Source: Hirudo medicinalis
Lineage: Eukaryota; Annelida; Clitellata; Hirudinida; Hirudinidae
Direction: 5' to 3'
DNA: 64,000 nucleotides
NCBI GenBank assembly: GCA_011800805.1
Contig: MPNW01000133.1
Coordinates: 11,002 to 75,001 of the forward strand
In this document: piece by piece, positions 24,726 to 64,000 of the stretch
Position numbering within the stretch: position 1 is the first letter of the stretch
How the letters are laid out: each line of letters begins with the position of its first letter
Position numbers and translations under genes: made by a program
The notes under the pieces: generated by a model
The model's database searches: none
The model's input: the letters and a program-made list of their open reading frames with translations, nothing else
What the model was told of the DNA's origin: nothing

Positions 24726-24791
24726 AACATCGATTCATGAAATTTCATATTTAATTATAACATAACGTAACATAACGTAATATGTAGTAGG

Positions 24792-26066: not shown

Positions 26067-26340
26067 TAATGATTTATTGATTTATTTCTGCAAATACCAC
26101 CACAACTTTTATATGTCCATATTTACTTGTGTAATAGTATATTAATAAGTTATGTAGCTTCTATATGAGAGGTCCAATTAGCTGGAGCAGTGCTCCATTC
26201 GGGCGGCCTTTGAGTGGCATTTGAGTATTTTTTTGTACAAACTAGAATTTTGGTTTATGTTTTCGTGTGTATAAGATGACCTCAAGAAATGAATAAATGA
26301 AAAATAAAAATAGATGAACCGGTACAGATGAGGATGGTGA

Positions 26341-26565
26341 ACGTGCGGTAGTGGAAAAATAAAGTTTGGGACATTTTTACAACCGCGCAGGGCTCCAGAC
26401 CAGAGGATCTCCAATGAAGCGAATGGAGAACCTTCAACGAAAGCGTCAAAAGACATGAGTCCAGTGGGACCTGCCGAAAACCCGCTCCTCGACGACAACG
26501 ACCTGCACACGAGAATCCAGGAGTACACAACGAAGTCGGACGCCATCTCGGAAACCAGCCAATAA
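26341..26565 (+). other. Coding-like terminal exon of an unidentified gene
   Basis: A 74-codon open frame, GC-rich for its surroundings, ends PLLDDNDLHTRIQEYTTKS then about ten residues and TAA. An acceptor AACCGCGCAG at about 26390 would start the exon in frame. The polar, acidic sequence with an acidic-dileucine-like ENPLLDD could be a cytoplasmic tail. No upstream exon could be matched. The minus-strand frames over the same bases look less natural. Confidence 0.4.
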
Positions 26566-27762: not shown

Positions 27763-30700
27763 ATGGTAAATTAAATTTAAGTTCTGAAAAATGATTATAA
27801 AATTTTAATAATAAACTATATTAAACTTTAATAGACAACATACTTTTCAATAAATATAAACTTTATTAGTTGACTATTAAAATGAAATTAATGAGATAAA
27901 ATAATTGCGAAATAGGCGGATGACCCTCTAAGGACAGCATGGTATCCTCCTGAACGATCAAGGATGATTCTCAACAGAAACAACTCCGTCGCCAGGTTAT
28001 TGCCATTTCATCAAGACTTAACTTGCAAAATAGCAACTTTTTATATTAGTAATAATAACAGTAATAATAATAATAATAAAATTTTGGTGGGATTTTTATT
28101 AGATGATCTTTTAAAGAATATTCTATCAAATAGTGTGCCTAATTAGGCGACCAATAACCTGCTGTAATATTTAATTATTGTTAACAATAAAACATTGTTA
28201 ATTGATGTCATTAGTTCATTTATAATAATTCATTTCAATCAGTTTGAAATCGATTTCAATCAATTAACATTCAACTTATTTAGAATCGGAAGTCGAGAGA
28301 TCGATAGATCTTTTCGCATTCCTATTTGCTAGCTTTTGTTTCTTACTGTGGATATTTTAATTCAATAAATATTCAATCAAATACGAGGTCAAGTTATCAG
28401 TAATGATAGCAGTAACATTTTTAGTCAACAATTAATAATATTAATTAATAATAAATAATATTGTTATCCTCTAAGAATTCTTTAATAATTCACAGCCACA
28501 TATAAATTGTCAGAACAATGTGGATAAAAACAATTTTATTATTGAAATTATTATCAATGTTTCAACTTTTGATTTGAAGAGGTCGTAATTAATGCCGATC
28601 CAAAAAGGTTTCACAACCTTTCAAAACTCTTTTGATTCGACTTTATTAACAATTTACCAATGTTTCAATATTAAAAATCCTATTAAAAGCCTAATGACGT
28701 CTGTGGCTTTCAAGAATACATTGTTATAGCGGACTTTCACAATCTCAATATTTATCAACTAAACATTGTCATTTGAAACGCCTCTTTTATGCTTCAGCCA
28801 ATTCGAACTCCCCTTACAGAGAAAACAAATCTTTCAAATCATTGAATAACAAATCATTTCTGACATCAATGAAACATAACAATGTTTTGAACTTTAAAAT
28901 AGCACATCTTTTATCGACCACATTGCTATATTTAATAACAATTATGTAGCACATTACCACATAAATAATTAATTATATTGGTACTTCTTGTCTTGAGCTG
29001 ATTAAAAATCTAAATAACAATTAAATTAATATCTAATATTTAATAAAGGTAAATTTAGTTAAAAGCTTATTTCATCATTATCATAATAAAAGATTTAAAT
29101 TATGTTATGATAGAATGTACATTGAAATTATGTAAAAAATCAAAATTATTTTTTGCAAGATCAATTAACTTCTTCCAAAACACCTCATCCTGATGTTGAC
29201 GAAGTCAGTGACATTAAAATGAGAGCTTATGCATCTGGTTATTAAGTTAAATCAATTAAATAAGGTCGATGATAATTTGGTAATTAATTGTAATAATGCT
29301 AATTATATCGATCCAAGCATAGTTTACATTTGGTTTGTTTCATTGATGTTCTATTCCGATTAGTTACTTGTTAGTTATTACGAAAATCAAATTCAAAGTT
29401 ACTTTGTTGATGCAACGTCGTTGAACCAAATCCATGAAATCTTGATTTATGTCTCCAACTGTGAGCGAACAATGAGACCTTTTGTCATCACGAAAAGCGA
29501 TGAAGTAGTGTAATTCAATTAATAATCATTCAGTAATATTGTTAGCTGAATAATATTATTAGTTAAATAACATTAACAATATCTGATAATAATCTTCAGA
29601 TGCAATAAATAATCGATGCATTAGATTACATTCAAATACTGTTGTCTCGTGCAGAAGTCGGCCTGGGTTGAACCAGTCTCAGAAGATTGCCATCGGAATT
29701 GGAACCACAACAGGCATTTTGGTCCTCATTGGCATCATACTTGGGGCAGTTCTTGGCACCCAGTTGAACAAACCCCATGAAAGTTGGTTATTATTTGTGT
29801 GGTCTCTATTCACAAGGTCCTACCCTTGAATAGATAGTTTGAGTTTGCTGCCAAGTTCAGTCATCATCATCATTGCTGCTTCTTATCGTCAATTCAGCGA
29901 ATAACCTACTTGTGCATGGTAATTGCCATACGTGGTACATTACATTATGCAGCTACGTAATAATTATATTTCTAAGTGCATGTACTTAATATAATGTTAT
30001 CACATTGTTAAACAAGGGATTGTTAAGAAATAACTGGTAACTGGATAAGTATATACGTGGTATTTGCAGGTAATACCATGCATTTGTTGCCTGAATATTT
30101 ACTGAATAAAAGAAAGTATAAATCCAGCATATATTTAGCCCCGTCCTTTATAACAACATTCAAGTAAACTTCGTTTTTAAGTATTTTCAAAACAATTTTC
30201 CTGCCAATAAAAGTCTATAGACCTATTTTACAATTTTTATTTTATTTTTATTCGCAAAAGTTAATGTTGAACTTTATATCAGTGGATAAAAGCAAAAAAT
30301 AGTTATCAAAAGCCCAAAAATAATTGGTGTTTTCAAAAAGAAAGTAACGGCTTAAGAGACAACAACAACAGTAATGATAAGAACAACAAGTATGTTGTGA
30401 TGATATGTAATTGTTATAATGTTATGATGGCAATATGCAATATTCTTTATTCTTGCAGCTACTTCGTCCAATTTAAGCATCACAACAGAAGGTGAGATTT
30501 TCTGACTTTAAATTATTCCATGGAACTCTTTCTCGTCTTTCTCGTTAAAATGTTGCAAATGAAGAGCAGAATTTGATAGAGTGTTATCATTTGGTAATGG
30601 TGTATTAAACAAGCTGCTTAGGTCGAGAAATATATTATTAATATATGGAAGTTACTAAATTACTTTGCAGGAAATAATTGGAATGGATAAGATGACTTTC

Positions 30701-31019
30701 AATTTATTTTTTCAAATTCTATTTTTCATGTTCTGTTTTTTTTTTTAGCACCAACCACGGTTATTCCAAGTAATTTTATTGCTTTCTGTTCACGAATGCA
30801 TTTTTGATCGAGAAAGACAATATTTTAAAGGCCATTAAAGGATCATTAAGTACATGTACACATGATCATCAGTAGGCAGACAACCTAAACGTTTGCACTT
30901 TGAGATCATGTTCTTCAAATTTCAATTTCTCGGATGCAAACTAAGAACTGAAATAGAATAATATTCTAGTGAACAACCTTTATTTGATTTTGTTTCCTTT
31001 GCAGCTCCAGCCGGCAATG
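27763..31019 (+). CDS. Giant gene, N-terminal part: cytoplasmic tail, signal anchor and STP micro-exons
   Basis: Exons: 27763-27765 (start codon only, donor ATG then GTAAAT), 27916-27995, 29655-29782, 30459-30491, 30749-30769, 31005-31019. The first 38 residues are polar and net basic (ADDPLRTAWYPPERSR...), with no signal peptide. Residues about 39-63 form a Gly/Ile/Leu/Val helix (IGIGTTTGILVLIGIILGAV). Basic residues on the N-terminal side predict N-inside, type II topology. Three tiny exons of 33, 21 and 15 nt, all phase 1, then encode TTSSNLSITTE, APTTVIP and TPAGN, a likely O-glycosylated stalk. The start exon is the least certain part: it rests on phase and donor fit, and another upstream exon could supply the ATG. 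Confidence 0.6.
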
Positions 31020-34000
31020 GTTAGTAAAAAATCTAAGAAGTAAATAGAACCATGCTTTAATAATTATTTAGTTACTTGATTATGTAAATGAAATTTACAA
31101 ATTTTTTTTAAAATTTGTAAATGGTAAATGCTGCTAATAAATCTTTATAACCAGATTATGTGATTGAAATAGAAATCCTGTTAACAATAATAGGTAATGT
31201 ATATGATAATGGTGATGGTGATGATGATGACGACGACGATGATGATGATGATAATATTAATAAAAAATATAATATTAAAAAAAAAAAAATAATAATAATA
31301 ATAACTGGTAATTAAAACCACGACTGCAAAGACTGTGTAGTTCTTATTAATCTTGAGGTGACGGATAACCTTCTATCAATGTCAGAATGAATGGAATTGC
31401 AATTGCATTTTCTTTTGTTTATATTGGGACAAATTTTGACAAGTGAATGAATAAGGGTTGTGTTTGTTTTTCATTATGCACATGAAATTCACTCCACAAC
31501 TGTGAAATCGTTTGAAATATCATCACATTCAGTACGTTCAAAGAAAGCGGGTGTTAAGGAGTAACATTGCATTACTTTTTGTACTGTTGTGTTATCGAGT
31601 AAAATTGGATTACCTTCACAACATTAATTTATCAAAAATTAAAAAAATTGTTGCATCTATGGAACTACTCAGTATGACATTCAAATGAGTGACAATGTAG
31701 ATTCTGTTTAAAAATTGGGCTATTTCTAAATTTAGAATAAAAACGTCTTAATCCTTGTTTTGGATTCACGGGATTGTTTCTAGCTAAGAACATTCAGTTG
31801 CTTTCGGTGAAATCCTGACTTCAGGGAATTGTTACTTCTTTGAATTGAGAGTTTGACACGATGGGTTCAAAAAAGTCTTAAAGTTGAGATTTTATGAATT
31901 GCGCCTGTTGAGAGTTTTTAATCGCAGAAAGGTTATCAGAATTGACTCGCATTTACTAAGACAGATTCTGATAAGTGACTCTTAAGATGACTCACCATCC
32001 GAAGAAGGATAAATTTGTTATCGAACAATGGCTCCAACCAATGACGTCATCTCAGTTGTTTTCGGGTTTGGTGAACAAATACTCGAATGGCATCTGATGT
32101 ATTCCGATGCATTAAATGTGCACGAATGCAGCTTTTCAATATCAACATTTCTAACAATAACAAGTTTCTCCCGTTGTTATTGTTCGCTTCACAGCATTCT
32201 TGAAACGAAACTATTGTGGAGGTGTTAAGAAATGATTATTTCATTAAGATGAGGCACTGGTTTGACACCTTGACATAACATTTGCCAATGTTGCTGGCTG
32301 GATGACATGCAGAATGTTTTGCTAAATTCTGCGATTGTATCGTTAAGTGATTTGTGTTATATTTGCAGGCAAATTGAGATCATTTCCTTGCTATTATATC
32401 ATCCAGTCCATGGAATTATAATAATTTTTAACATGACATGTAAATTTCGAAGGCTCATTTTTTTCATAATAGACTCAGCAGTCCGACTAGACACAGAAAT
32501 GACTTTGGACAATATCACCTTTACGAATGACCTCAAGGACCCAAATTCTGAGGCTTACAAAAAATTGGCAAACCAAGTCTGCGACGAAGTAAATTTCAAA
32601 CGACTTACAATTTTATGAATTAAATTCATGCAATTCAAAAACCTTTGCCGAAGTTTCTACACTGAAAATGAACAACGTATTCTTGTTTAGATGAAGAAAG
32701 CATTGCCACAGGATCAAGTAGATGAAATTGACTGCTCCGATATAGAATTCAGGTTTATTGATCTTCCATGTTGTAGCCTAATCAATATTTTGCTGTGATT
32801 TCTCTTGTGCGATAAAACGAAATTTTACATTTTCTTAAAGACATTTCCTTCACTCTTACTTCTTATAGCACTTTATGTTGATCATTGAACTTTTTAGCCC
32901 TGGAAGTGTGGTGGTCAGATTCGTCTTTAGAGTAGTCGTGAAGAAAACAGTCACGATCACAAAGGCCAGCTTTGGCAATTTGGTTCAGAGTTGGGTAAAA
33001 CTTAGGTTCACCAAAGGTGTTCTAAAGGCGAAGAAAGACTCCTTTAAGTTCAAAAATCTCGGAAGTAATTTCTTAAAAACATTACTTATTTGAATAATCA
33101 CTTTTAAAAAGTCACTTCAATAAGTTAATGTTTCTTCTTTACAAATGAATTATCTGCTGCGAATCAGATTCTTTTGGAAAATCTACATTTTACTAATTTT
33201 TATATCAGTTTGCAATCCAAATCCATGCAAATATTCTGGGAAATGCATGGACGTTGGAGGTGGTGAATTCAAATGCCAGTGCAAGCCTGGAAAATACGGG
33301 AAAACATGCGATGACGGTAAATTATGGAATTTCTTTACTATAAATTAGTTACTTTTTCCAAACTTGCCGTTTTCACAACCTTTCTACTTGGACTCAATAA
33401 GAGCTGTTTAAATGGCTCTTACGACATTATAAATTAAACTTTTATAAAAATTATTGCCATGTTTAATTCATTTCATTGAACTAATTCAGATCCAACATTC
33501 TGCACTTGTTCCGGAGATCCTCACTGCAAAACGTTCGATAAATTGGCCATGGACTACCAAGGAACATGCAAGTTCGTACTCAGCGAGGCCAGAGACAAAT
33601 CGTTCACAGTCTACTCTCGAAACATCAACATCAAAGGGGTCAAGAGAGTGTCTTGGGCCAGATATATAGAATTGAAATACAATAATCTTGTCGTGAGAAT
33701 GGGTAAACTTGACCCATACAACATTAAGAAACTTAACGCCGCTTGGGTGAGTAACGTTGAAAATGATCTGAATTATTATTATCTGCATATAACTCATATT
33801 TATCTAACCATATCTATTTTTAATTAAAAGGTAAATGGTGTACAAGTGAACCTACCATACCAGAATGCAGATGTAAACATTTATAAACAAGGGCAAACTC
33901 TGGTCTGCAGGACAAAATTTGGTTTGATGCTCACATATGGCAAATGGCAAGCCAGGGTTGGATTAACATCGAAATTCAAAAATAAAGTTTGGTTTTATTC

Positions 34001-37000
34001 AATTTTTATTTCGTCTTTAATTTTAGAATTTTATAACAAAAAATGAAACTTCACATTCTTACTTTTTAATGTTTATAGGATGCTTAAACTTCCAATGTGA
34101 GGACTTGTTGCTTATCAAACTAAATTTGCATAGACGCAATAAAGTGATAAGCTTAAATGACTTGCACACAAATGCATGACTGCATTGAAAAACAGTGCAA
34201 AGAAAATATTTAATAATGAGTTGCATTAATTTTATTGTTTAATTGATCGAGTTTAGAATCATTTGAGGATCTCAATAGCAAGTCGAATTAAATTCGATGT
34301 CATTCTTGACTGTTATAATTGTGCACGTTAACTAAAAATTAATTTTAATTTGCAATATAATCAATTATGCAAAATAAATTTCGTAATTAATGATTACGCA
34401 GATACAAATTGAGTCATTAACATAGGTGACAGGATTTTGTGGAAATTTTGATGGGAACAAGAAAAACGATGCATCCACCAGCTCAGGGGAGTACGTCTTC
34501 AAAAAGAAGAATTTTGGGAACATCATTGGAAACAGTTACATTGTTCAGGACACTGAGAAGCAACCTTACAGGTTTTATGTGGTTTGATTAAATTTAACAT
34601 TATTATCACGCAATAGTTATGATATTGCTGTAATAATATATAATAATAATAATAATATTATATGTAATAACATCTCAGGTTCCTTTTACGGCGAAAGTGT
34701 CAAAAATGTTATTGTAAGGTAACTTGTAATTAATAACTGTTTGTATTGTATAAAGACTGTACATTGTATGGAATAGCATTATGAGTAACATAAAGTCTAT
34801 TTTAATATAGCATGTTTCCTCAAAAGGAACATTTTAATATTAGATAATTTTTTAAAGGCAAATTTATATATATTATAATTCAAATATTATTACAATTATT
34901 CATTATAAAACAACTGATTCTGCAATCCCCTTTTACTCTGTATTCAAATTTGTACTTTATCAAGGAAATTATGAAATTGCTTATTAAATTATAAAATTGT
35001 TTTCCAGTTCTTCTTGCAAGCTGTCAGATGATGAAGTTGGCAGTTCTGCATGTCCAGGTGTGGACCTCGAGAAAGCGCTTTTCCTCTGCCAACAAATCAA
35101 GGATCCCAAGGGGAAGTTCAAAGATTGCGTCAAAGCCTTGAAATCCGACGATGTTTGTTTCATTAAAATTTATTTTAAAAAGTTATTTGCCAATTATTTG
35201 AATATTTAATAATTAAATAATTTTAGTAAACAAACAAATAAATAAATAAATACTTGCAAGAAAGAAATGATAATGTCCCAACGTCATATAAAAAAATACA
35301 TTCGGTTGAAATACCTCTTGCATTCGCATAATCACTCATTCCATGCCCAACAAATCAGCAGAACATGGATTTGGCAGAAAGTGATCCTTTCTCTATTCCT
35401 TTACTCAGCTAAAGCACTCGAACGCCTGCAAATTGTTCTTCTGTAGCATAAGTTTTTGTTGAATTAAACTTCAGCAACGCTGGCCTTGTTTGTTGCCATC
35501 CATCCAACTGTGACCAAAGTAAGTCTGGTGATCAAAAGGCCAAACATCGACTTCCAAGAGTCGCAGCGTCATAAACGTCACTTGGTCCCATTAGGGGTCG
35601 TTTACAGAAACTGTTGTCATTAACATTGTCACATTACTACATAATATTTCATAATGAGTGTAATGCAATAATATTACGTGATAAGTAAGAATTATGTTAC
35701 TTAAGATGATGCTGAAAATATATGCTTGGTATGCATCATACTTTAACAGCCAATTAATTCAATCTGAATAAGCAACCAATTAGGTTTATTCATAAGCAGT
35801 CTTACTCTTAATTTTAATTTCAACAATTCATTCTTTACACAGGTATCCGATTTCAGTAGCTGGTGTGATTTCGACGTGAAGCAGACGTGCGATGCGACAG
35901 TTGCAACTGCAGCTGTAACAACTTTCGTCGAGTCCTGTTTCGAAGTTGACTACACTCTCCTACAAAATGTTCTCGATTGGAAAAAAGAATTCAACATCAC
36001 TAAAGGTGCTCAAATATCACTGGCAGTATTTAATTCGATTGTTTTAAAAGTTTTACGTTTTTATTTTTGTCATATTTCTGCAATTTTTTTAGTTTTAAAT
36101 TCGATTATTTTGTTATCATATTTATTCTTCTTCTTAGGAAATTATATCGAATGTTGGCAATATGCTGAGATTTTTGTGTGAGATTTAAATAAGTAAGATT
36201 ATCTTGATTGATTGCTAAAATGAAATTTTTATTTTTACACCTAAAAAATAAAATAGGAAATATAATTTGGCAACTTTTTAATTTTCTATTTTAAAAATGG
36301 TTTATTAGGACACTGATTAAATCATTTGTCGTTTTTACAAGATGATGAATTTGACGACGAGGACAACTGCACTGGTAACACAATACCAAGCACCTCAGGG
36401 TGTCAAAACACTTGTGATAATCAAAATGCCACCCTGCTCTGTGACCTTCCTGATGTTGTTGGCTCCTGTTCATGTCCCTCCGGTACCCTTTCCTTTAAGG
36501 ACAGCTGTGTGACACAATCCATGTGCGGTTGCATTCACACGGATGGATCGGCTCATTTTGTGGGTACCTTGGATCTATAGATCTAAATAGGGCATGTGCA
36601 AATGATGTTGAATAATAACAACGCTGTTGATATTTGAAATATTAACGATTAATTATTAATTATTAACTATCAAATAACTCTTTTCATTGAAATAATTCAT
36701 AATTTAATAGTTATATTGAAAGTATCAAAAATGATAATCGATTGTAGCTGCAATTTGTTTCTATTTTCTTTCAAAGATCAATGAAACGTGGCTCAGTGAG
36801 GATTGTTCCAAGAAATTCACTTGTTCAGCTAGTGGAAAAATATCAACTTCTTTAAATTCATGTCAATTTGGAAAAACCTGTGTTCGTTCCAAGTGTTCTG
36901 GTACGAAGACTAAACTTTTTCGGTCTTATTGTTATGTTATAATATTAGTTTATTTTTATAATTGGTTCATTAATAATGTGATGAATTACATTTTAAATGC

Positions 37001-45796: not shown

Positions 45797-45828
<32 letters not shown>

Positions 45829-51800: not shown

Positions 51801-54800
51801 AATCACTTTCGGAAGAGAAGGTGAAGGTCTCAATGCCAGGCTGATTTTGAGGGTGAGTTTGAATAAACTTTTCAAGAAAAGTTTTATCTTCAATTGAGTG
51901 AATTAATTGAGTGATTAATTATATAATCATTTATTAAATCCATAATATTGATTGTTGAGGATCTCAGGACTGATTCAGTGTCTGAATTTAGTGGAATTCG
52001 TCCATTGAAAAATTTACGAATATGTAAACGTAATAGTCTATTTAAAATCATATTTAATAGTAATTTTAAGTTGTTTAATGTAATTATATTATGATTGTTG
52101 TCATCTCATTTCAGATGAACAACCTCACCACCATTGATCTACCATATAAAGCAGACGATTTTGACATCATTCTCAAAAGTCCCCTAAGTGTCACTTTCAT
52201 CTCTAAGACCGGCATCAGTTGCTCCTACGACGCTTTGGAATCTTCTGTAACTGTCAGCTTGCCAACAACTTACATGATATCTGGTGGCATATCTGGACTT
52301 CTTGGAAATTTTGATGGAAATCCTGGTGAGTGCATCAGTGGACATCTTTTCTATTGATTGATGAATGGATGAATAAAATGGTGATTTGTGATGGATGATG
52401 AATTTCAGAGATGATGATTGCAAGCACTGGGTGTTAGAGAGTGCATACGCTAGTACATGTATGTATGTAGTTGAAATTTTAGGAAAATCGTTTTGAGAAT
52501 ATTCCGTTAAACAAATTGTCAATAAATAATTAGATTTAATTTTAATTTGAAATGAATTCAACTATATATCCCGTTTTGGTTAATTTGTGAACATTTCACG
52601 CTTAAAATAAGAAGTACAAATGAATTAATTGAATGAATGAATTATTGAAATGTTGATATTAATCATTTTAAGAAAATGTTAAACAATTTCCAGATAATGA
52701 TCTGATAACAGCTGATGGAAGGAATGTTTCAAATAGCACTGATCCTGGTAATGATATCGGAATCAGCTACACCAACACATCATCACCTGAGTTTAGGTGA
52801 GTCACGATTATTATTGTCAATGTTTATGATTGTATGTTGCAAAACAATTATGCAACGAAACATAATTCGGTAATTAAAAAGTTTAATTTGCTTTCAATGC
52901 TTTCATCATTAACTTCATAAGGCTATAATGGTAATAATAATAATAATGTTAATGGTAATGGTAATAAATCCGAACTTGTTTACAATAGCTGAATATAATT
53001 GATGCATTTGTGAAAAAAAATTGTTGAATATAATTGATGTCTTCTTTAAGCATAATTGATTCCTGTGAACAAGCTCATGACTCAAGACTTAATTAAAACG
53101 TTTGATCCCTCATCAGAAACATCAGCAACCTGCCTCCGTTGCCAGCTTGTCAGGACAATCTCCAACCACTGCTGGACAAATGCAAGCAGCTGTCAAGTCT
53201 CTCTGGCCCACTGAAGCCACTTGTGATCAAGTTGGGGATCAGTATGTCGATGGTCCTTCAAAACAACTGCTTGTCCGATGTGAGAAGGTCGTGCAGTACG
53301 GATGCAGTTTGTGCGGCTGTCAAGAGGATGAGTGAAGCTGTTGGAGACGGTTTTGATTGGAGGACTCCATTTGCCTGTGGTGACTGTTTTGTGCTGCTTA
53401 TTATATATTATTAAATTTTATTAAAAATTATTATATTTTACTACAGATTATTGAACGATTTTTTTTTTAATTTAGAGAAGTTTTATTCAACGAAATACCT
53501 TAAACACAAACAATAAAGCCATAAAAGAAACTAAAATAAAATAACTCAAGGGTCATCCTTAAGGAAGCACATGCTTCCGCCATCAGACCGACCCTCGTTA
53601 ACAAATCACTTGTAGCACCATCCAACATAAGAAAACAAAATCAGATTAACACATTCAAGAATACCGTGTAATATGTACAATTTATAAGATTGTTTAAATA
53701 ATAGATAAATAATATTGAAGGTTCATGATTGCAATTGATTAGTCATTGATGAGGGAATTGAAGATTGAAGTTCTTGGACCATAACATTGAACGTAGAAGA
53801 GCTTGAAAGTAGATTTAGAAAAGAAGGACTATATTCATGTGTATTACATAGAAAATTAAGAGGGTTATTGTAATTATTACTATATTTATTTAATTAATTC
53901 CACATCAGAAGTGAAGTTCTGGCGTGCAGGTTGGTCGAATGCCCTGCATTCCCGCGCGCGGTTGTAATGGCAACAGTCGTAATGCGTCTTCGCAAACCAG
54001 CTTGCACCGCCATGGAGCGCCCTCGGGTAGGGGCGCTATATAAATGGTAGAACGATTAAAAAGTGCTTCATATACTATTCGGCATATAAGGCACTCAAAA
54101 GATCGGCTAAATACAAGATTCAAAACTAACACTGCGTTCGTAGAAAACATTAGCAGTCTTAAATAATATTTCGTCATACATCCCATTTACATTGATTAAA
54201 GTTGCTCTCTTTATGCGATTATTTTATTTCTGGTAATTAAGTGGTTCTAAAGTTTAATTTTTCATTTCACATATTTTTTTATTCACTAATTGAAAGCTGG
54301 AGAATCATTTTATAATAATATCCAAGACAGGATATTTAATTATTAAGTACTTATTAATTAATTATTAACTAATTAATTATTATTGAATTGCTTTTTATTA
54401 GCTAATTATTTATTTTTTAATTATTAATTATCGTCGTGAATATTTTCAAGAGGTCAAATGTCCTGATGGATTTGAACCCAGGCCAACCGCATCCGGGTGT
54501 CTTCCCTCTTGCAAGGACCCCACAGCTGATAGAACGTGCAGCTTGCCCGATGTCACGGATGGTTGCACATGTCCTGCCACCAGGTTGTTCTTCAAGGGCA
54601 GATGTGTGGATCGGTCCCAATGTGGATGTGTCGACAATTCAACCGGGATGTCTTATGAGGTGAACCATCAGTGTTGTTGCTGTTGTTTGTGTGTTGTTAA
54701 TTGAAAGGTTAATATTACATTTTAGTAAATGGTAAATCAACGTTAAACCTCGATCTACAACATTATATGCTTAATGCTGGTAATTAATTAATAATATTTA

Positions 54801-57800
54801 CAATTAACATTGGAGAATTACCTAATCACTTAACTTAGATTGGAAAGACATGGAGAAGTGATGGATGCAAAGTGAAACTGACATGCAGTATCGGAGGGAA
54901 TGTTACCAGTGAAGATGTAGGTGGCTGTGTGAAAGGTGTCTGTTGGAGAAATAGGTGCTCAGGTATGGCTGTATAAATGGTTAACAAAAAGCGCCTCTGA
55001 CATTATGCGTAAGGCGCTACATAAGTGCAGTACATTTACAATTAAACTTTTGGAATCATTAAATAAGCAGTTATCACTAACAACATCTTTACATTCCTCA
55101 TCTATTATGATTTCACCATTGCCTAGCACTGTCTACCATGCAAAATTGAAACACTCCGTTCCATGAATTAGAATTAATTCACTATAACTCAACCACCTTC
55201 TCAGGCTGTCAAGTGAATCCATGCACAAATAGTGGAACCTGCCTTGATGTTGGTGACGAGGGTGAATACGTATGCAAGTGCCCCACTGGATTTTATGGAA
55301 GGAGATGTGATGGTTAGTACATCTCGTGGAAGATTTCAAGTGAGACTAATACTGGGATAATATTGTTCCAAGTAGTGTTGTTAATTTGTTTAGTGGTAAA
55401 CTATAAACCACGTTAAACCAATGGGGATGTTAACCAGTGTTATAGCATCACCTGCATTATTTAATTGCATGGAAAATGCTTTCAATAAATGTTTTAAAAC
55501 CCTTTAATCCGTGGTTTGAATGTCAGGGTCTTATAAATAAAACAGTTGAAGAATAATTAGATTAAAATTTCTCGCATCAGGTATGAACAACCAGGCAGAC
55601 GTAACAGTTCTGATAGAAGATGGCATATCCAGTTGCCGGGGAATTACAGATGCCACCCAACTGTCGAGTTGCACCAAGAATTTCACAGACACGGTGAAAA
55701 ATTTCCTCAAAACTTTTGTTGATGGATTGATAATTGGACCAGAAGATGTGAGGGTTTCTCTGGTGACCTTCAGCTCAAAGGTTACTGTGGTATGGCCGCT
55801 AGCAGAGTTAGTTGCTTAATTCTTTTGCAAATACTTTTTCTATTAATAATTTTACTATTAACAATAATTCATTGCAAAATATAAAATTAAGGGTGGTACT
55901 CATTTGCATTACTTACAGTACAAACATTTTAATATTGGCATTTGCCATTGTTGGTGATTTCATACCGGCTTTTCGATGCCATCAGGTACTCAAATGTCAC
56001 AACTCTGAAAGGTGCAATTGACTTCAACCTGACCCTGACTTATAACAAAGATGAATCAGTTGACCTCACCAATGCTTTACAATCAATTACAAGCTTAATC
56101 AACTCTCCTGACCTTCAAAGCGTGCCAAAGCTTAAGGTACTCATCCTCTTGACCGATGGGGGTTCAGACTTTGATGCTGCTTCAGCTCCAACGTCGGCCA
56201 AGAATTTGGCAGATGCCAGGATCGGTGTTTGTGGTGTTGGACTCTCATCAAAAGTTAAAAGTGATGTCCTCAAGATCCTCTGCTCAGAGCCGAAAAGGGT
56301 GAATCTACGAAATTGCTTCTGAGATGTCTGAATGAATGCTAAAAATTATTACATGATTAGCGGTTGTTGGAGGTTTTTAAAATGAATAACGAACTATCTT
56401 TAAAACATGTAAATTTTAAACAACTTTCAATTTAAGTACTTGTTAATCCGTTTATATGTTTCTGCAAATTTAGAACTTTTCTTGAGCAGCTCTTTGGGTT
56501 AATGAAGAACTTTTCAATTTATTGTTGCAGATCAACTATAATTACTACTCATATGTTGGAAATGTCAATGTCAATGTTCTGAAGGAAGCCATCAAACTTA
56601 AGGGTACTTGAATGTATTTCTGAAATAATATTGAATAATAACGTAACAACAATTACACATCCGTGAAAATATTCTGCAATAACATTTAGTTATTGTGCTT
56701 GTCCTAAAATTTATTGTTTTAATTGAATATTCAGTAAACTTTAAATAATTAATCAATTGCTATTGTTAAATGTTAAAATGTTAAAATTTTTTCTCAAATG
56801 TCTTTTAATTGCTGATCGATCTCAGAGCCCACCAGAACCACACCAGTGAATGAATCGACATCAACATGCAGATGTTCTGGTGATCCACACTGCAAGTCCT
56901 TCGACGGGCAGGTTATCAACTACCAAGGAACCTGCAAGATACTCATGGCCTCCAACAGGATCGAAAATGCCACTCGAGATTTCCCACCCTTCTCTCTCTT
57001 TCTGAAGAGTTACCATCGTGGTGGCAACACCAGGGTATCTTGGGTCGACCATACAGAATTTGTGTACAATGGTAAAGTGGTGAAGTTTCAGAGGGCAGGG
57101 GAGTTCAGGGTATCAGAAGTGATTGTCACCGTGAGTGGCTGTAATTAATGTGATTTAATTAATTGTTTCATACCTCGTCGTCTTATATTGACTTAACAGC
57201 TGCTTGTGATCTCTAGAATGTCATTTAATGCCATATAAAGGTTATAGGAAATGGTTATACACTCCAGTTCAGTTACTGTTAATTTAAATGATAATATTTA
57301 TTTTGATTTTCATAGGTTGGTGGAAGAATGGTGAACGTACCTTACTCTGGTGGTGACTTCACCATCGATTACAAAGGAAACTTTGTTGAACTTCAAGTCA
57401 TTGGTTCACAAGTGAAAGTTGCTTACAGCAGTCGTGGAATCACATTCATAACATTACCCGACCAATTCTTTAAAAATGTTTGAGTTCCTGAAGTTCATTT
57501 TATTAATAGTTTATTAATTGACTAATTAATTATATTTGAGGTGGAAGAAAAAGACAAAATATAACTTATTCAAATTGACTGTTGTCATAAGTTTGTAATG
57601 CTGCTTTGAATGTGTTGTGGGAGGACTTTTGGTCACATCATGACATTGTATCATTCCTGAGAACACCTGCATAAAGAAGTAATGTTTATAAAAAATTAAG
57701 TACAACTTTTTTTAAAGAAGGTATTTGGACTCTGTGGTAACTATGATGGCAATCCAAGGAATGACTTAAAGACCAGGAATGGTACGGATGTCTCTGGAAA

Positions 57801-60800
57801 GATGGATCCAGGAAAGGAGATAGGAGACAGCTACATTGAATATTACGATGCTGACAATGCTGCTCTTTTGTTAGTTCTTGTGCTTGGATGTTTTCTAATT
57901 ATTTTTAAATTTTAAATAATTATTGATTAAGTGAAATTGATACTAGTAATTAATTATTCTTATTAATTAAAAAGGAAATACTTTGTTAAGATATAATTAT
58001 AGCCCTCAACAAGTGATCGTCCATTTTTAGGAATGTTATTAGGCCCTAATATCCTACTAATTAGGGTATTATAGTGTGACTATTATTTAACATGTGCGCA
58101 CTTATCAGGGCAAACTGCAAGCCACCGATGGTGAAAAACCAGACCTGCCCAGCTGATGCAAAGTCATGGGTGGACAAATGCAGACAACTGACAAACAGAT
58201 CTGGCATCTTCAAAGATTGCCTCCCCAGATTGTCCTCAGTAGCTCAAGATATGCAGGCTGATTGCTTGTTTGACTTGGAACAGACCTGTGATTATTCTTC
58301 TGTTGAACTTTCCATTGCTCAGTTTGCAGCAGCTTGTATGGATGCTGGAGTGTCTGTGGAGGGCTGGAGAGGATCCTTAGATTTGCGTTTGTAGTTTGGA
58401 ATATATTAATTATCATAATTATATACTTTGTTATTAATACATTTGGTTTTATTTAAATCACACAATTATTCTCCCTGCAGCCTGTGAATGTCCAAAGGAT
58501 AAGATATGTCTTCCAAAGGGCTCCCCTTGTTTACCCACTCTCTTTAACCCTGATAGGGGATCTCAGTGCCCCCAGCCAGATACCACTGATGTGTGCAGTT
58601 GTTCAATTGGGAAAGTGCTCTTCAATGGAATTTGTGTCAATCCAGAAGAGGCAGGATGTGTTGATGGAGAGGGCGGAGTGAGGAAGGTTTGTTGTTGCTG
58701 TTGTTGCTGTTGTTGTTGTTGTTTTTATTGTTGTTGCTTATGGTATTTAACAATGTAATGAAATGTAATTCAATCGTCTGCTATGTAATCGGTTATTTAA
58801 AACTTGTAAGTTGATTAAAACTTTTAAGGCCATATGTTAATAATAGTTAATTTCTAGAGTCTTTAGGATTAAGTAATTAAAAAATATAGTGATTGTGCTA
58901 ATTAATGCAATTACATTATTATCATTTTAAGATAAAATAATGCTTCTACAAATGGTGTATTTTATATTATATTTATTAAATATACAATTGTATTTATTAA
59001 ATTATATAAATATATTTATTAAATTACTTTTTAGCTGAAAGAGTCATGGCTGAGTAGTGACTGTCAACTTTTATACACCTGTACATCAAGCAACAACATA
59101 TCATCTGAGATTGTATCCTGTCCTGATCAAACTACCTGTATTAATGGAAAATGTTCAGGTGAGGTTTCACTTATGAGAAGGCGTCCTTGATATATCATAT
59201 AATTACACTTCTTCAGGTCATTATAATTAAATGATATTTCATGATTTAATCCTTGTTAATAGGTTAGTCTACATGCAAATCGAAATGCCTTTAATGTAGT
59301 TGGATCGTTATTATTGCTACTAGTAAATTTATTATAATTAAATTAATTAATTAACAGTTATTTTATGTCGATCACGCATACAGCTTGCCTTCAGTCCTTC
59401 CCATGTCAGAATGGTGGATTGTGTGTTGAGCAGTCAGAATGCCAGCCAAAATCTCTTCCAAATCCTGGTAATTCCTCATCCAGCCATATAATTATTATTA
59501 TATTACATATTCTGTCTTCACATATTATAATTCAATGTTTTCCAACCTTTAAAAAAAAATTCTATCTAAGGATGCTACTGGATGAAAGTTCCCAACACAG
59601 AGAATTCCATAACCATTCCTGCCCCTCTGAGCACCAACAGCCTCTCCTCATGTTTCCAGTCTTGCCTTTTCAGTAGCAGTCCTTGTGCAGGGATCAACTG
59701 GCTTCCATTAGCTCCTCTTGGTCAGCAGTGTCTCCTCGTATCAAGCCTTTCCACACCCACTGAGGAGAACTTGGACTCCACTCAGTACCTTTGGGTGTGT
59801 TCTGGTGAGTCACGTTTGCTGTTATTTGATTGGTTGATTGTTTGATGTTGATATGGTTTTTTTTAACAACAATGAAAGTTAATTGTTCCATAACAGAACT
59901 ACAATATGTATTTTAACTTTAAAATAGTTTATGTAATTAAAAAACTATTTGAAGAAAGGGGTCAAATATTTTAAAGATTTAGCTCATAAACTAATTTTAC
60001 ACCAGACAAACCCTGTGCTGCTTCTTCTGCATCCAAGTATAAATGTGCATGTAAGAGAGGATTCCAAGGCTCTAATTGTGAAACATGTGAGATGTTTTTT
60101 TCTACAAATATTAAGCAATTATTTAGTTACAGTTTATATTCGTTCAAAATTTTTGGTATTTATAAATTAAGATGTAATTTTACTTAACCTAAGCATTAAT
60201 ATGTAAGGTAAACATTTCAATTAATTAATTGCTGACTTGATTTTTAGCGTCAGGTACCTGCACATTGAGTGTCAGAGCAAGATTGGAGACTTTTGATGGA
60301 CAGAGCCTTCTCTTCAGGAGCAACTGCAACACAACCCTGGTCAAGAGCAAAATCACGACAACTCTTAACAAGTTCATCATCACTGTCAAGAACTCCCAAC
60401 GAAACTCAATGAATGAGAAGTTCAGTCAACCAAGGATTCTGAGAATCAACTTCAGAGGAAAAGACTTTAGAATTGAAATTCCAGATGTTGGTGTTCCCAG
60501 GATCTTGGTGAGATTTATTTTATAGTCACTTAAAACTTGACTGATATTAAAGAATGTTATAAGCATGACAATTTATGTTAGCCGCTATTGGATTGATAAG
60601 TTTATATAAATTAATTTTTGGCTATAATTATGTGATTATAATTATATTTTTATTTAATAATTAATTTTTCTTAAAAATTTTCCAGCCTTCCAATGGAGAC
60701 TCCATTCTTCCTCTCAGTCCTCCATTTGAAAGCTCTGATTTTAGCATCAATTTTGTTGGGGGTGACTTAGAACTTCAGACAGCCTTTGGTCTGACTATTA

Positions 60801-63751
60801 CCTGTGGTTCATCTGGATCAGTCAGAGTTGGTTTGCCCCCCGACTATGCAGGCCAAGTGGAAGGGCTATGTGGGGACTTTGATGGAGATAAGAACAATGA
60901 CGGAAATGTTAGCCTGTCTGATCCTGGAAATTTAATCAGCAAACAGTATTTTGTTCCTGATGTTGAGAATCCATCTGATGTGTGAGTTGATGAAAATTTC
61001 AAGTTATTTTAAGATTTATTTATTATTTATATTTAATTCCTTATTTACATTGGTTTATTAAATTTATTGGAATACATTTACATGAAGTTATATAGGAATG
61101 GATCTTAAAAGTTGAATCAAAACTATAATGAGTTCTGCATGATTATACAATTACGATCTATTGCTGCAAATGTGTTATAAATTTTACAAATTGAACTTCC
61201 ATTGCCTCAATGCACCAATTATCTAATGCATTTAAATTACAACAACAATTGAATAGCAACTGTTCAGTTGCTGACCTGAACAACACAACAATGACTTCAA
61301 CAACAAACAAGCAGAGATGTCAAGCCATTACAGACACAAATGGACCATTCAGAGAGTGTCTCTCCAAACTCGATGTGACGGGTCTCGCGAGATTGAAAAA
61401 ATCCTGCGAAATTGAAGTGGACATTTCTCTCAATGAGTTGGCTGCCTGTGCTTCCCTTGAGAAGCTCCTTGATTGGTGCAACAGAGATGCAAATGTGATC
61501 TTATCAACCAATTGGAAAGCAATATTAGGATGCAGTGAGCATTTTACTTTTTATTGTGTACAAATGAACTCAGTATATTTGATGTATATGTACTCACAAT
61601 ATCTGCATAACCTGGGTTACTGTTGTTCGGGCACTTCTGCCGCTTTAAAAGAATATATGCAAACTACTTATAAGATGTATTTGCAGTAGTTCCATCACTT
61701 AACTTCATTAACATCAAATAATATAAATTTTATTAAAGAACATAGAGTTATTCCACCAATTTTTATTAAAGAATGCAGCTGTGCAGATGGTTTCATCTGT
61801 GCCCCTCGAGCATCAGGGTGTCCAGACACCTGTTCCAATCCAAGTGCCTCCCTGAATTGCTTGAAACCGGACATCCAGGACACTTGCATCTGTCCACCTG
61901 GTAAAGTTCTGTCCGTTGATAGGTGTGTTGCACCTGAACAGTGTGGATGCATAGATAATGGTGGCCACCCCAGGCAGGTCGGTGAATTTGTGGGATGTTT
62001 CATTGAACAATACAATTTAGTGCTAAAGTGCTCATCATTTATTCAGTATCAAAATTATATGCAGGTGCTGATTGGATCATAAATTTACAAAGTTGATGTC
62101 AGAATAATTTGTTCTGTGTGGATATTCTTAATAACCTTTATTGTTTTCACACAAAAAAATGTTTATGTTATTTTTATCATTTTTATCATTATTAACCATA
62201 GGATGATTGTGGTTCATGTTTTATTGATTAGATGAATTACCTCAATTGATCCCAAATGATGATTTGTGAAAGATGATGTAGATATTGTTACCATTGTAAT
62301 CACAGATATCAGAGCAGTGGCTCAATGAGGATTGCACAATACTGAGTGAGTGTCAAAGAGATGGCCATATCTCAATAATTCCTAACAACTGCTCACAGGG
62401 AAGTGTCTGCAACAACTCAATGTGTTCAGGTAGGAGGCAGTTGCTGTTGTTGTTGGTGTTTAAAAAAGTAGCTACTTGTGTTGTTTACAAAACTGTGTAA
62501 ACCTTTAAAGTATTGAGAATATGTTGTCATTTTACCTATTTGTGTTGGATATTCAGAGAAATATATGAAACATTGTTGTAAAATTTTATCTTGACATTCA
62601 TTAAATCTTTTATTTTTGAAAAGTCTGCTCTGTCAACAACCCTTGCAAGAAAGGTGTCTGTAAAGATATAGAGGGAGGTGGTCCACCCATTTGCAGATGC
62701 CCACCAGGTTTTGTTGGAAAGAACTGCGAGATTGGTGGGGAATACTTTGGTGTTTGAAATATGTGCTATTTAATAAAGGAATTATACAATTATGATTAAG
62801 CATTCTGTTATTTAAAAATAATAGCTATTGCATGGAATACATTGACCTTTAAAGGACAATTATTTTGTGTAACTGAATAATTGGCATAATTTTTTAGATG
62901 TTATTTAAATAAGTATTATGTATTAAAATCTTTAGTATTTAAATATTTTTTGACATTTACTCCAATTGCAACTAAAAGTTTTCTGTAATGAACAACTAAA
63001 CAAATAATTAATTAAATATTTTTCAATTTAAAGAATTGTTCAACGAATGCTTTTTTTAACCAACAGACAGCAATAATATATGCCTAATATATGGGAATGG
63101 GCACTGTCATACATTTGACGGGATGCAGCTTGATTATGGTGGAGATTGCAAGATCACATTGGTGGAATCCATTCCACCACTTCCAACTTTTAAAGTTTTT
63201 GGGAAAAACTACAGATTGAAGAGGGATGTGTTTTTCATGAAATATGTTGAGATCATGCTAAATGAGGATATTGTGAGATTTGAACAGACAGGATCACAGC
63301 CAGCCTCTAACATCGATATCATGGTATAGGATTTGTTAAATCATCTTCATTCCATACCTAGAAATTTATTTTGTTATCATCAGCATTTTATAATTAATAA
63401 TAGTATAAAATTTCTGTCCTAAATTAATTTATAATATTTTCAACTTATTCAAAAATTTCAGCTCAACAATAAATATGTTGCACTACCACTAAAACTGATT
63501 GACTACACGATACAATACAAAGGACAAAAAGTGGAGCTGCAGACTAATTTTGGACTTACTGTCACCTTTCATAATGCCATATTATCCTTGGCAGTTCCCA
63601 GTCTCATGAGTGGCAATCTGAGAGGACTTTGTGGAAACTTTAATGGAGATAAAAGTGATGAGAAAATAACTGCAGGTGGAAAAAATGTTTCAAATGGTCA
63701 GGAAGTTGCTGACAGTTATATTGTACTTGATCCTGATTCCTTCCAGCCAAA
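27763..63751 (+). CDS. Giant membrane-tethered SEA/EGF/VWD/C8/TIL multidomain protein (3' end beyond window)
   Basis: Seventy-seven coding exons totalling 12,734 nt (4,244 residues plus two bases) join with consistent phase from a start ATG at 27763 to a donor at 63752. Order: basic cytoplasmic tail, transmembrane signal anchor, Ser/Thr/Pro micro-exon linker, SEA domain, then nine EGF-VWD-C8-TIL-Cys-rich modules, the ninth cut by the window edge after its VWD. VWA is added in module 7 and a PAN/apple-like exon in module 8. VWD-C8-TIL units are shared with gel-forming mucins, zonadhesin, FCGBP, tectorin, otogelin and SCO-spondin, where they drive disulfide-linked assembly. With a SEA cleavage site next to a membrane anchor, the likely product is a surface protein whose huge ectodomain can be held non-covalently or shed. 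All splice sites are GT-AG except one GC-AG (50402). Module boundaries are all phase 1. The exon-by-exon layout is given in the entries below. I know of no named gene with exactly this architecture. Confidence 0.93.
31205..31302. repeat. GAT/GAC and AAT microsatellites in an intron
   Basis: GATGATGACGACGAC-type triplets (about 31208-31252) are followed by an A-run and AAT units, in the long intron before the SEA exons (31020-32472). Confidence 0.9.
32473..33064 (+). CDS. Giant gene, SEA domain with GSVVV cleavage motif
   Basis: Three exons (32473-32588, 32691-32752, 32898-33064) encode residues about 94-208. The fold is signalled by SAVRLDTEMTLDNITFTNDL, the helix EAYKKLANQVCDE and DCSDIEFSPGSVVVRFVFRV. 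GSVVV at about 155-159 is the canonical SEA autoproteolysis site of MUC1-type mucins, cut between Gly and Ser in the ER. It sits roughly 90 residues outside the predicted membrane anchor, the expected spacing for a tethered and sheddable ectodomain. A strand of conserved alternating hydrophobics follows in the third exon. Confidence 0.85.
33209..36900 (+). CDS. Giant gene, module 1 (EGF-VWD-C8-TIL-Cys-rich)
   Basis: Exons: EGF 33209-33316 (CNPNPCKYSGKC ... GKYGKTC); VWD 33490-33746, 33831-33986, 34426-34571; C8 35008-35152 and 35843-36005; TIL 36342-36559; Cys-rich exon 36777-36900, starting INETWLSEDC. The VWD opens CTCSGDPHCKTFDKLAMDYQ and contains FCGNFDG, so it keeps both the GDPH motif and the calcium-loop region; the usual CGLCG is FCG here. 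C8 includes ACPGVDLEKALFLCQQI and WCDFDVKQTCDA. TIL includes TSGCQNTCDNQNATLLCDLP and CSCPSGT. A long stretch without sequence features lies in the intron 35153-35842. Confidence 0.95.
37116..40157 (+). CDS. Giant gene, module 2 (EGF-VWD-C8-TIL-Cys-rich)
   Basis: Exons: EGF 37116-37229; VWD 37548-37705, 37818-37925, 38085-38395; C8 38483-38621 and 39014-39155; TIL 39550-39758; Cys-rich 40031-40157, starting IGETWLTPDC. The VWD opens CQCFGDPHCITFDGMMLDYQ and has SGLCGNFDG, a fully canonical copy. TIL reads SGLTPPCIPSCQDPLAAENC and later CTCPPGKVLFQDKC, the textbook TIL cysteine spacing. The second C8 exon contains WCLFDVSLTCDAS. A frame through 38019-38084 upstream of the third VWD exon is intron read-through, not coding. 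Confidence 0.96.
40435..43529 (+). CDS. Giant gene, module 3 (EGF-VWD-C8-TIL-Cys-rich)
   Basis: Exons: EGF 40435-40551; VWD 40782-40929, 41085-41193, 41357-41673; C8 42144-42405 and 42687-42834; TIL 42957-43165; Cys-rich 43391-43529. The VWD opens CKCKGDIHCQTFDGLYLDYQ, so GDPH has become GDIH and Asp-Pro cleavage is not expected. The CGLCG region is GLCGNNNN. C8 contains an Asn-rich insert with several NxT/NxS sequons (NHS, NVT, NVS, NIT), and the second C8 exon adds more (NLT, NVT, NST). The Cys-rich exon is also sequon-rich (NCT, NNT, NGT, NST), so this is the most heavily N-glycosylated-looking module. Confidence 0.95.
43899..47128 (+). CDS. Giant gene, module 4 (EGF-VWD-C8-TIL-Cys-rich)
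   Basis: Exons: EGF 43899-44024; VWD 44306-44538, 44962-45117, 45619-45770; C8 45940-46015 and 46190-46400; TIL 46574-46785; Cys-rich 47011-47128. The VWD opens CYFFGNGHLITFDGLPLNLN. GDPH is replaced by GNGH, a Cys is lost and the usual LDYQG is now LNLN. The later motif is GVCGDYND. It is therefore a diverged copy that keeps the fold but has probably lost GDPH cleavage. TIL is canonical (SSACPASCKNPDQASQC, CGCSDGFLLFQGRC). An AAT microsatellite lies in the intron just after 45770. Confidence 0.94.
45798..45829. repeat. AAT microsatellite in an intron
   Basis: About ten AAT units lie between the last VWD exon and the first C8 exon of module 4. Confidence 0.9.
47418..50870 (+). CDS. Giant gene, module 5 (EGF-VWD-C8-TIL-Cys-rich), with GC-AG intron
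   Basis: Exons: EGF 47418-47531; VWD in four pieces 47875-48044, 48584-48679, 48802-48973, 49145-49259; C8 in one exon 49431-49717; TIL 50187-50401; Cys-rich 50747-50870, starting IGETWLNDDC. The VWD opens CSVYGDPHYISFDKQYFDYQ; GDPH is intact but the following Cys is Tyr. SGLCGNFDG-type residues appear as TGLCGNFDG split across exons. C8 lacks the internal intron of modules 1-4. The TIL exon ends GRAFK, and its donor is GC (AAG then GCAATT) rather than GT. Every other module splices at the homologous point with GT, and phase 0 is kept, so a GC-AG intron is the best reading. Confidence 0.93.
48735..48798. repeat. TCA/TCG microsatellite directly before an acceptor
   Basis: A TCGTCATCG... then (TCA)n tract ends a few bases before the CACTTAG acceptor of the VWD exon at 48802. 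It forms a pyrimidine-poor, repeat-derived branch region. Confidence 0.9.
50404..50470. repeat. ATT/GTT microsatellite beginning at the GC donor
   Basis: An ATT-unit tract starts two bases after the GC splice donor at 50402-50403. Confidence 0.9.
51093..54962 (+). CDS. Giant gene, module 6 (EGF-degenerate VWD-C8-TIL-Cys-rich)
   Basis: Exons: EGF 51093-51203; VWD 51581-51852, 52115-52325, 52694-52796; C8 53117-53379; TIL 54451-54659; Cys-rich 54839-54962. The VWD lacks the usual opening: it reads SGSYINSHCMTFDKATFDFK, with no CxCxGDPH, and later SGLLGNFDG where the CGLCG cysteine is Leu. It has thus lost cysteines at both diagnostic sites, though the length and introns are kept. C8 ends FACE with a donor at 53380; a donor three bases earlier would create a stop. 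The 1.07-kb intron 53380-54450 contains a GC-rich SINE-like patch. Confidence 0.92.
53925..54050 (-). mobile_element. SINE-like GC-rich fragment in an intron
   Basis: A sharply GC-rich block in an AT-rich intron ends, on the plus strand, GGGGCGCTATATAAATG. That resembles the 3' tails of several animal SINE families (GGCGCTATATAAAT-type). A related string, AAGGCGCTACATAAGTGC, occurs near 55007 in the next intron but one. No tRNA-like head could be proven, and the strand is uncertain. Confidence 0.35.
55205..59158 (+). CDS. Giant gene, module 7 (EGF-VWA-VWD-C8-TIL-Cys-rich)
   Basis: Exons: EGF 55205-55312; VWA 55581-55806, 55986-56298, 56531-56603; VWD 56826-57130, 57316-57477, 57721-57869; C8 58109-58386; TIL 58481-58686; Cys-rich 59035-59158. 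The VWA shows ADVTVLIEDGISSCRGI, VRVSLVTFSSKVTVVWPL, DLTNALQSI and KVLILLTDGGSD. The metal-site DxSxS is DGISS, so the first serine is lost, while the later Thr and Asp are present. The VWA block starts and ends in phase 1, the pattern of a shuffled insert between EGF and VWD. The VWD is canonical: CRCSGDPHCKSFDGQVINYQ and FGLCGNYDG. TIL is less regular than in other modules (LPKGSPCLPTLFNP). Confidence 0.94.
58687..58738. repeat. GTT/GCT microsatellite at an intron start
   Basis: Mixed TGTTGTTGCTG units begin directly after the TIL exon donor of module 7. Confidence 0.9.
59384..62429 (+). CDS. Giant gene, module 8 (EGF split by a PAN/apple-like exon, VWD-C8-TIL-Cys-rich)
   Basis: Exons: first EGF half 59384-59467 (ACLQSFPCQNGGLCVEQ); PAN-like 59571-59804; second EGF half 60006-60086 (KYKCACKRGFQGSNC); VWD 60248-60507, 60686-60981; C8 61257-61534; TIL 61772-61977; Cys-rich 62306-62429. 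The middle exon reads GCYWMKVPNTENS, then SCFQSCLFSSSPCAGINW and QQCLLVSS, a cysteine order like PAN/apple or WSC domains. It is phase 1-1 and sits between EGF cysteines 3 and 4. The VWD lacks GDPH entirely (TLSVRARLETFDGQ) but keeps EGLCGDFDGD. C8 is preceded by a Thr/Asn-rich stretch (NNTTMTSTTNK) and lacks several usual residues of the second half. TIL is canonical (ASGCPDTCSNPSASLNC). Confidence 0.9.
62624..63751 (+). CDS. Giant gene, module 9 (EGF-VWD), cut by window edge
   Basis: Exons: EGF 62624-62734 (VCSVNNPCKKGVC ... GFVGKNC); VWD 63067-63323 and 63462-63751. The VWD opens CLIYGNGHCHTFDGMQLDYG, so GDPH is GNGH as in module 4, and contains RGLCGNFNGD. The last exon ends in phase 2 at a GTAATG donor, as the VWD of every other module does, so a C8 exon is expected just past 64000. 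The remaining 250 bp is intron without features. Confidence 0.93.
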
Positions 63752-64000
63752 GTAATGACAAAGATGGTTCATTGTTGTTAATGTTTAACTCTTGAAGCAG
63801 TTTTAATATTACATAAGGTTATAAACATCAACATGATATAGATTATTATAACAAATTTTAATGCAGAAACATCAGCACAATGATAGAGCAAAGAAAACGC
63901 AGAAAAACAATTTTATCATGCTGAAATTAATGTTATTATAGTTTTTAAAATGACAAAAACTTTACTTTCCGAGTGCTCTGCAAACGCAGCCATTTTGAGC

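Follow-up and report, generated by a model that had tools for sequence, protein, structure and literature searches.

The window, by which we mean the whole 64,000-nucleotide stretch of DNA that was analysed (C133:11002-75001), carries a real giant gene on its + strand, in which a hydrophobic helix, a short Thr/Ser/Pro stub, a SEA domain, nine EGF-VWD-C8-TIL-E modules, and a soluble C-terminus follow one another in this order. Judged from the sequence, this is probably one gene that encodes a type II membrane protein, whose giant ectodomain would cut itself and form a sheddable surface coat.

The assembly comprises 133 Mb in 1,557 contigs, and the flanks of the window were examined to both contig ends. 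The window is intron-rich, with a GC content of 28-39% per 2-kb window. Exons were called using a home-made predictor, trained on the window contig and six other VWD-bearing regions, and were then corrected by hand; the first automatic model fused the whole contig into one gene and served for exon scores only. The predicted gene consists of 80 exons at 27763-65144 (window numbering) that form one open frame of 4,514 residues with no in-frame stop, and the predicted protein contains 298 Cys and 77 N-glycosylation sequons. All 79 introns (median length, 235 bases) have an AG acceptor, and the donor is GT in 78 and GC in one. The region given in the preliminary description ends at 63751, but the stop codon was found at 65144, after CTCSQT and 1,144 bases beyond the window end (L010:1144); a gene running off the contig was thereby ruled out because the stop falls inside the contig. 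AATAAA occurs downstream of the stop at 65297, 65318, and 65468. The model is strongest from the SEA domain to the stop, where it is strongly supported; the exons 5' of the SEA domain were placed manually, the automatic predictor having picked other small N-terminal exons. All nine modules open in phase 1; modules 1 to 8 also close in phase 1, and module 9 runs to the stop codon. The TIL exons are phase 1-0 in all nine. Part of this regularity is built in, as the phase template was in view during the manual choice of about a dozen boundaries and of the N-terminal exons. The N-terminal features are as follows.

27763..27765, + strand: candidate first coding exon, an ATG followed at once by a GT donor (from the sequence; weak, as the Met codon at 27964, in frame in the next exon, could be the start instead)
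27916..27995, + strand: putative basic cytoplasmic N-terminal exon (GC 0.51; coding score 7.1 in frame versus -8.4 and -8.2; weak acceptor, 1.5)
29655..29782, + strand: helix exon (TM exon), the proposed type II signal anchor (GC 0.49; coding score 5.5 versus -6.6 and -9.8)
30459-30491, 30749-30769, and 31005-31019, + strand: three phase 1-1 mini-exons for a Thr/Ser/Pro stub (phase and splice signals only; uncertain)
32479-32588, 32691-32752, and 32898-33064 (span 32479..33064), + strand: SEA domain (Pfam PF01390, 29.9 bits; cut-off 26.4)

The hydrophobic helix corresponds to residues 39-63, coded by 29686-29760. The best 19-residue hydrophobic window (residues 39-57) scored 2.38 and the runner-up, inside a Cys-rich TIL, 1.73; one stretch thus stands out, in agreement with the preliminary description, which had placed the only hydrophobic helix near the N-terminus. 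The GC content of the TM exon is 49% versus a mean of 29% for nearby model-free 128-base windows, none of which (0/912) reaches 49%. Only one frame of the exon looks coding, and its end phase, 1, is the one that the first SEA exon needs. The phase of exon 27916-27995 fits the TM exon, which joins the SEA exon in frame even without the three mini-exons. Among 15 phase-1 hydrophobic exon candidates at 24000-32470, versions of the TM exon held ranks 1 to 7 (scores 16.2 to 9.1), the best other candidate scoring 8.5, and the best of 13 ATG-led signal-peptide-like exons at 20000-32470 scored 4.3. In a whole-contig control, 13 hydrophobic exon-like stretches (seven on the + strand and six on the - strand) outscored the TM exon (16.2), 11 of them in or antisense to assigned exons and two unassigned. 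The hydrophobic score of the TM exon alone therefore proves nothing, and phase, GC content, and position carry the case. Basic residues lie ahead of the helix and near-neutral sequence behind it. A type II topology, with the helix uncleaved and the N-terminus inside, was the best of the readings tested, and we consider it reasonably likely; the topology proposed in the preliminary description is favored by the GC content, frame, and phase of the TM exon, although rival in-frame starts precede the SEA domain and EGF1.

The TM exon could instead belong to the gene with its helix acting as a cleaved signal peptide, which would give a secreted protein with the SEA domain foremost. The automatic predictor opened the TM exon at 29683 in phase 0, and the phases permit the join from 27763-27765 to this position, which yields M-K followed by the hydrophobic run. 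The cleavage rule for signal peptides would tolerate the small residue at -1 and V at -3 around residues 60-62. However, the helix run of approximately 23-25 residues is long for a signal peptide, as the hydrophobic stretch of signal peptides is usually shorter, and exon 27916-27995 looks coding (GC 0.51; 7.1 versus -8.4); we consider this reading improbable.

The rival starts would give a secreted D-assembly protein with a cleaved signal peptide and a role in matrix, mucus, or adhesion, initiated at ATG 33145 (EGF1) or 32433 (SEA exon 1), with the TM exon being a minor isoform or unrelated. Two of the 79 acceptors are preceded in frame by an ATG and a hydrophobic run, exactly those of SEA exon 1 and EGF1, the two 5'-most module starts; by our own reading, the Lingula protein P0002 has the layout signal peptide-EGF-VWD; and vWD-C8-TIL is described as common in secreted aquatic adhesives, of which sea star Sfp1 is autocatalytically cut (PMC8621496). 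On the other hand, a polypyrimidine tract ahead of an acceptor itself translates into hydrophobic residues, and such an upstream frame exists at 14 of 79 acceptors. A start at 33145 would also leave the SEA exons without a gene. Both alternative-start stretches are rich in AT, with GC contents of 0.31 and 0.26, and do not resemble coding sequence, but the same is true of the probable real signal peptide of the downstream TMED gene (74069), whose coding score of -4.6 is no better than theirs (-6.3 and -5.2); the score therefore cannot decide against the alternative starts. The probable signal peptide of C234, an own-genome paralog, scored +11.7, unlike that of TMED. On balance, we regard secretion from these starts as unlikely and retain the type II anchor as the working model.

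The link between the N-terminal exons and the modules hangs on splice phase and three tiny exons, so the TM and SEA exons might have been wrongly joined from another gene or by an assembly artefact. Against this, SEA exon 3 lies 144 bases from EGF1 and is joined to it in phase 1, and no other coding exon on the + strand takes up the SEA domain. Two separate genes are unlikely because the stop of the SEA frame and the alternative ATG of EGF1 are only about 50 bases apart, and we consider a wrong joining very improbable.

The SEA domain claimed after the helix was found by Pfam, and its self-cleavage motif, GSVVV, occupies residues 153-157 (coded by 32902-32916). A PDB search with the first half of the domain gave three weak matches (E 0.18-0.88), with a faint likeness to the MUC1 SEA up to the Gly of the cleavage site, and no solved structure matched the second half even at E 10. 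An exon-by-exon search of the rest of the genome with the TM-SEA part gave no match at E 10. An own-genome search with PF01390 was blank and missed even the three-exon SEA of the window, and it is therefore uninformative on other SEA genes. MUC1 is reported to be cut between G and S of GSVVV, after which the halves remain paired (PMC9564314), and matriptase, a type II TM-SEA protein, is reported to be cut at Gly149-Ser150, held non-covalently, and to stay tethered (PMC5567652). Cleaved SEA domains are said to remain intact until force is applied (PMC6954182).

Beyond the SEA domain, the ectodomain is composed of the following modules and inserted domains.

33209..36900, + strand: module 1, EGF-VWD-C8-TIL-E, with GDPH at 33513-33524 (Pfam, phases, Cys columns)
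37116..40157, + strand: module 2, with GDPH at 37571-37582 (Pfam, phases, Cys columns)
40435..43529, + strand: module 3, with GDIH in place of GDPH (Pfam, phases, Cys columns)
43899..47128, + strand: module 4, with GNGH (Pfam, phases, Cys columns)
47418..50870, + strand: module 5, with GDPH at 47904-47915 and the GC donor after 50401 (Pfam, phases)
51093..54962, + strand: module 6, motif lost (Pfam, phases, Cys columns)
55205..59158, + strand: module 7, with GDPH at 56879-56890 and a vWA inserted between EGF and VWD (Pfam, phases)
55581-55806, 55986-56298, and 56531-56603, + strand: von Willebrand A domain of module 7 (Pfam PF00092, 72.9 bits; cut-off 23.8)
59384..62429, + strand: module 8, motif lost, EGF split by an inserted exon (Pfam, phases, Cys columns)
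59571..59804, + strand: PAN-like exon, phase 1-1, within EGF8 (PAN_1, 19.5 bits; below the cut-off of 21.4)
62624..64000 (within the window), + strand: module 9, with GNGH, continuing beyond the window as far as the stop (65144; sequence, phases)

The preliminary description had counted at least nine EGF-led modules; there are exactly nine, in order. Pfam places the EGF above its cut-off in four (modules 1, 2, 4, and 7), below it in three (3, 6, and 9), and gives no match in two (5 and 8). The VWD exceeded the cut-off singly in modules 1-7, and modules 8 and 9, searched as one piece, gave 139 bits in two stretches. C8 was matched in module 7 only (23.3 bits; cut-off, 23.7), TIL exceeded its cut-off only in the piece holding modules 8 and 9 and fell below it in modules 4 and 6, and TILa scored 14.7-27 bits in six modules (cut-off, 27). 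The assignment of C8, TIL, and E therefore depends chiefly on 22 columns of the module alignment, each holding Cys in seven or more of the nine modules (pairwise identity between modules, 25-36%), and on a nine-module profile, which matched near-full-length VWD-C8-TIL-E assemblies at 110-235 bits in the homologs P0001, P0008, P0009, P0011, and P0012. FCGBP-like, zonadhesin-like, Lingula, and Dimorphilus proteins are represented among these matches. The vWA of module 7, the PAN-like exon of module 8, and the GDPH motifs were absent from the earlier account. The vWA reads DGISS (in 55581-55806) at the position of DxSxS, the metal motif usual in vWA domains, and its metal-dependent binding may have been lost. 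Pro/Thr/Ser-rich sequence is limited to the 23-residue stub (residues 71-93) and a short Pro/Thr stretch in module 9, with no long region, and the C-terminus has no hydrophobic stretch. The soluble C-terminus and the SEA domain with nine EGF-led D assemblies described earlier are thus supported, and the anchor stands as a proposal.

GDPH is present in four of the nine VWDs (1, 2, 5, and 7), each with a Gln at D+14 (4/4). Of the remaining VWDs, one has GDIH, two have GNGH, and two show no motif; the Gln is missing in four of these five. This Gln spacing is that of D4080 and Q4094 in domain D10 of FCGBP (PMC10880436). The same source reports that D10 is no longer cut once the Asp or His is lost, that cutting is weaker without the equally spaced Gln, that a disulfide retains the cut strand, and that human FCGBP has 11 GDPH motifs in its 13 VWDs (PMC10880436). 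The SEA and GDPH motifs themselves are seen in the window, and from them we infer cutting at both kinds of site.

Homologs were sought with queries of 1,562, 3,734, and 683 of the 4,514 residues among candidates within a length band and, in the last search, among the 7,992 sharing most words. The searches recovered 15 distinct homologs (7 of 5,438, 11 of 3,836, and 1 of 7,992 scored candidates, four being common to the first two). Most are FCGBP-like, zonadhesin-like, mucin-5B-like, or SCO-spondin; the remainder are two Lingula proteins, one from Dimorphilus, one cadherin-like crustacean protein, and one PKD-repeat protein. SEA (PF01390) appears in the Pfam lists of none of the 15, four of which were examined in full. 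Given the partial queries and length bands, the absence of a closer relative among the scored candidates is weak evidence. In its own genome, VWD matches lie on eight contigs. For the tree, matches that scored less than 60 bits or were not nearly full-length were left out, and one in three of the P0008 and P0009 domains was kept. The resulting 53 rows united the nine modules and one C234 domain in a clade (100/99); the nine are not a clade alone, as the C234 domain falls among them. This clade sits in a group with Lingula modules (98/94), and the C396, C8, and C914 domains group with the mucin-5B-like and SCO-spondin sequences. C234, the closest paralog, appears from its sequence to be secreted, with Thr/Glu-rich repeats and an ordinary signal peptide, and Lingula P0002, the closest homolog with the same module, begins with an apparent signal peptide before its first EGF. 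C396 carries a separate VWD gene, in which a long stretch is rich in Thr and Pro and the end resembles a cystine knot (Cys_knot 22.7 bits, below the cut-off of 24); this gene seems to encode a gel-forming mucin of the animal.

Repeated VWD-C8-TIL-E in this order is the mark of a D-assembly protein; nine copies are present here, and by their sequence, the modules are D assemblies of the FCGBP/zonadhesin type. FCGBP shares the long VWD-C8-TIL-E series and the many GDPH motifs, and its structure 8rde_A was the best PDB match of module 1 (E 9.1e-90). However, FCGBP is secreted, the sections consulted of its published account describe no TM, SEA, or EGF leaders, and Pfam scans of the whole model gave no match to the FCGBP-type N-terminal PF17517 that is listed for P0008 and P0009. 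Zonadhesin and the zonadhesin-like shark protein P0001 likewise combine VWD-C8-TIL-E repeats with EGFs in one membrane protein, but P0001 has a C-terminal anchor with the EGFs near it and no SEA in its Pfam list; its MAM (PF00629) had no match in scans of the whole model, and a zonadhesin orthologue was ruled out, as the model lacks a C-terminal anchor. EGF-VWD-C8-TIL-E units also form P0002 and P0011 of Lingula anatina, the latter also with a vWA, whereas their Pfam lists contain no SEA. The shaft is therefore of a known kind and the tether looks unusual: the preliminary description had found no familiar counterpart, which does not hold for the modules, with their Lingula and FCGBP/zonadhesin parallels, and may hold for the N-terminus (SEA in 0/15 homologs).

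The CGLC-type motif in VWD is linked to disulfide polymerisation. Its first Cys is missing in all nine modules; other D-assembly proteins are mixed (P0008 has three domains with it and 12 without). A gel-forming mucin was ruled out, there being no long PTS region and no CGLC Cys.

For the N-terminus, the layout of an uncleaved helix followed by a SEA domain is that of matriptase and fits the model, with the rival in-frame starts also present. The matriptase ectodomain consists of CUB, LDLa, and protease domains, whereas D assemblies form the present one, and no serine protease domain was matched by Pfam across the model, so the feature of a type II transmembrane serine protease was not found. 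The likeness would lie in an N-terminal helix and, directly after it, a self-cleaving SEA to which a large ectodomain is attached (PMC5567652). SEA-type membrane mucins (MUC1 and MUC3/12/17) share a SEA with a GSVVV-type motif and a shed surface layer, but they have a signal sequence, a long PTS region, and a C-terminal TM, and the present model has no C-terminal TM after its SEA. These mucins are said to have arisen in vertebrates (PMC9578598). The temporary-adhesion proteins Sfp1 and Mlig-ap1 also combine vWD-C8-TIL with EGFs, and Sfp1 is reported to cut itself into four parts; both are secreted glues, for which the part of the source consulted describes no SEA or helix anchor (PMC8621496). 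In the open-licence literature, we found no protein that combines an N-terminal TM-SEA with D assemblies.

In the model that we favor, the basic cytoplasmic start and the single helix (residues 39-63) would anchor the protein with its N-terminus inside, and the SEA beside the membrane would cut itself between G153 and S154, leaving halves paired non-covalently as in MUC1 and matriptase. The nine modules would form an FCGBP-like shaft, of which VWDs 1, 2, 5, and 7 would self-cut between Asp and Pro, the pieces being joined by an FCGBP-type disulfide; each chain could thus have up to five self-cut bonds and still be held together. The vWA and the PAN-like insert would be likely binding sites. 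A pull that parted the SEA halves would release approximately 4,360 residues and leave approximately 153, making the protein a tethered, sheddable coat that is adhesive or protective. Tentatively, and with more reserve than for the anchor itself, we suggest that this is the first D-assembly giant on an N-terminal TM-SEA tether, with two unrelated self-cleavage chemistries (G|S in the SEA and Asp|Pro in four VWDs), which arose apart from the vertebrate SEA mucins and whose coat parts at a set force. If true, a sheddable coat can be built in reverse, with an N-terminal anchor and D assemblies instead of mucin repeats, outside vertebrates. With up to five self-cleavage sites per chain, the protein would also lend itself well to testing why self-cutting occurs in GDPH and SEA proteins that nevertheless stay whole.

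Several other genes were observed around this locus. On the - strand at 1992-4570 of the window is a protein tyrosine phosphatase piece (73.4 bits) with a neighbouring exon that has a C-terminal hydrophobic tail, resembling PTPN1, and an antistasin-type exon lies at 16323-16466 on the same strand (33.8 bits; cut-off 21.2). Just upstream of the giant gene, 26341-26562 is a coding-like stretch (21.4 on the + strand and 16.1 on the - strand) with a single match in the genome and no Pfam match, and it may be the end of an upstream gene or a 5' exon. Just after the gene, a reading frame at window-equivalent 65905-66165 (L010:1905-2165) has zinc-ligand-like Cys and only sub-threshold Pfam matches and is possibly derived from a mobile element. 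The next downstream gene, on the + strand (window-equivalent 74069-75599), was identified through Pfam EMP24_GP25L (145 bits) as a p24/TMED cargo receptor, and its product probably begins with a signal peptide. It is followed on the - strand (window-equivalent 76039-79320) by a tyrosine-kinase-like receptor, possibly ROR-like, with a kinase (174.9 bits), an Ig I-set domain (27.3 bits), and a Frizzled-like piece (16.4 bits, below the cut-off of 32.1).
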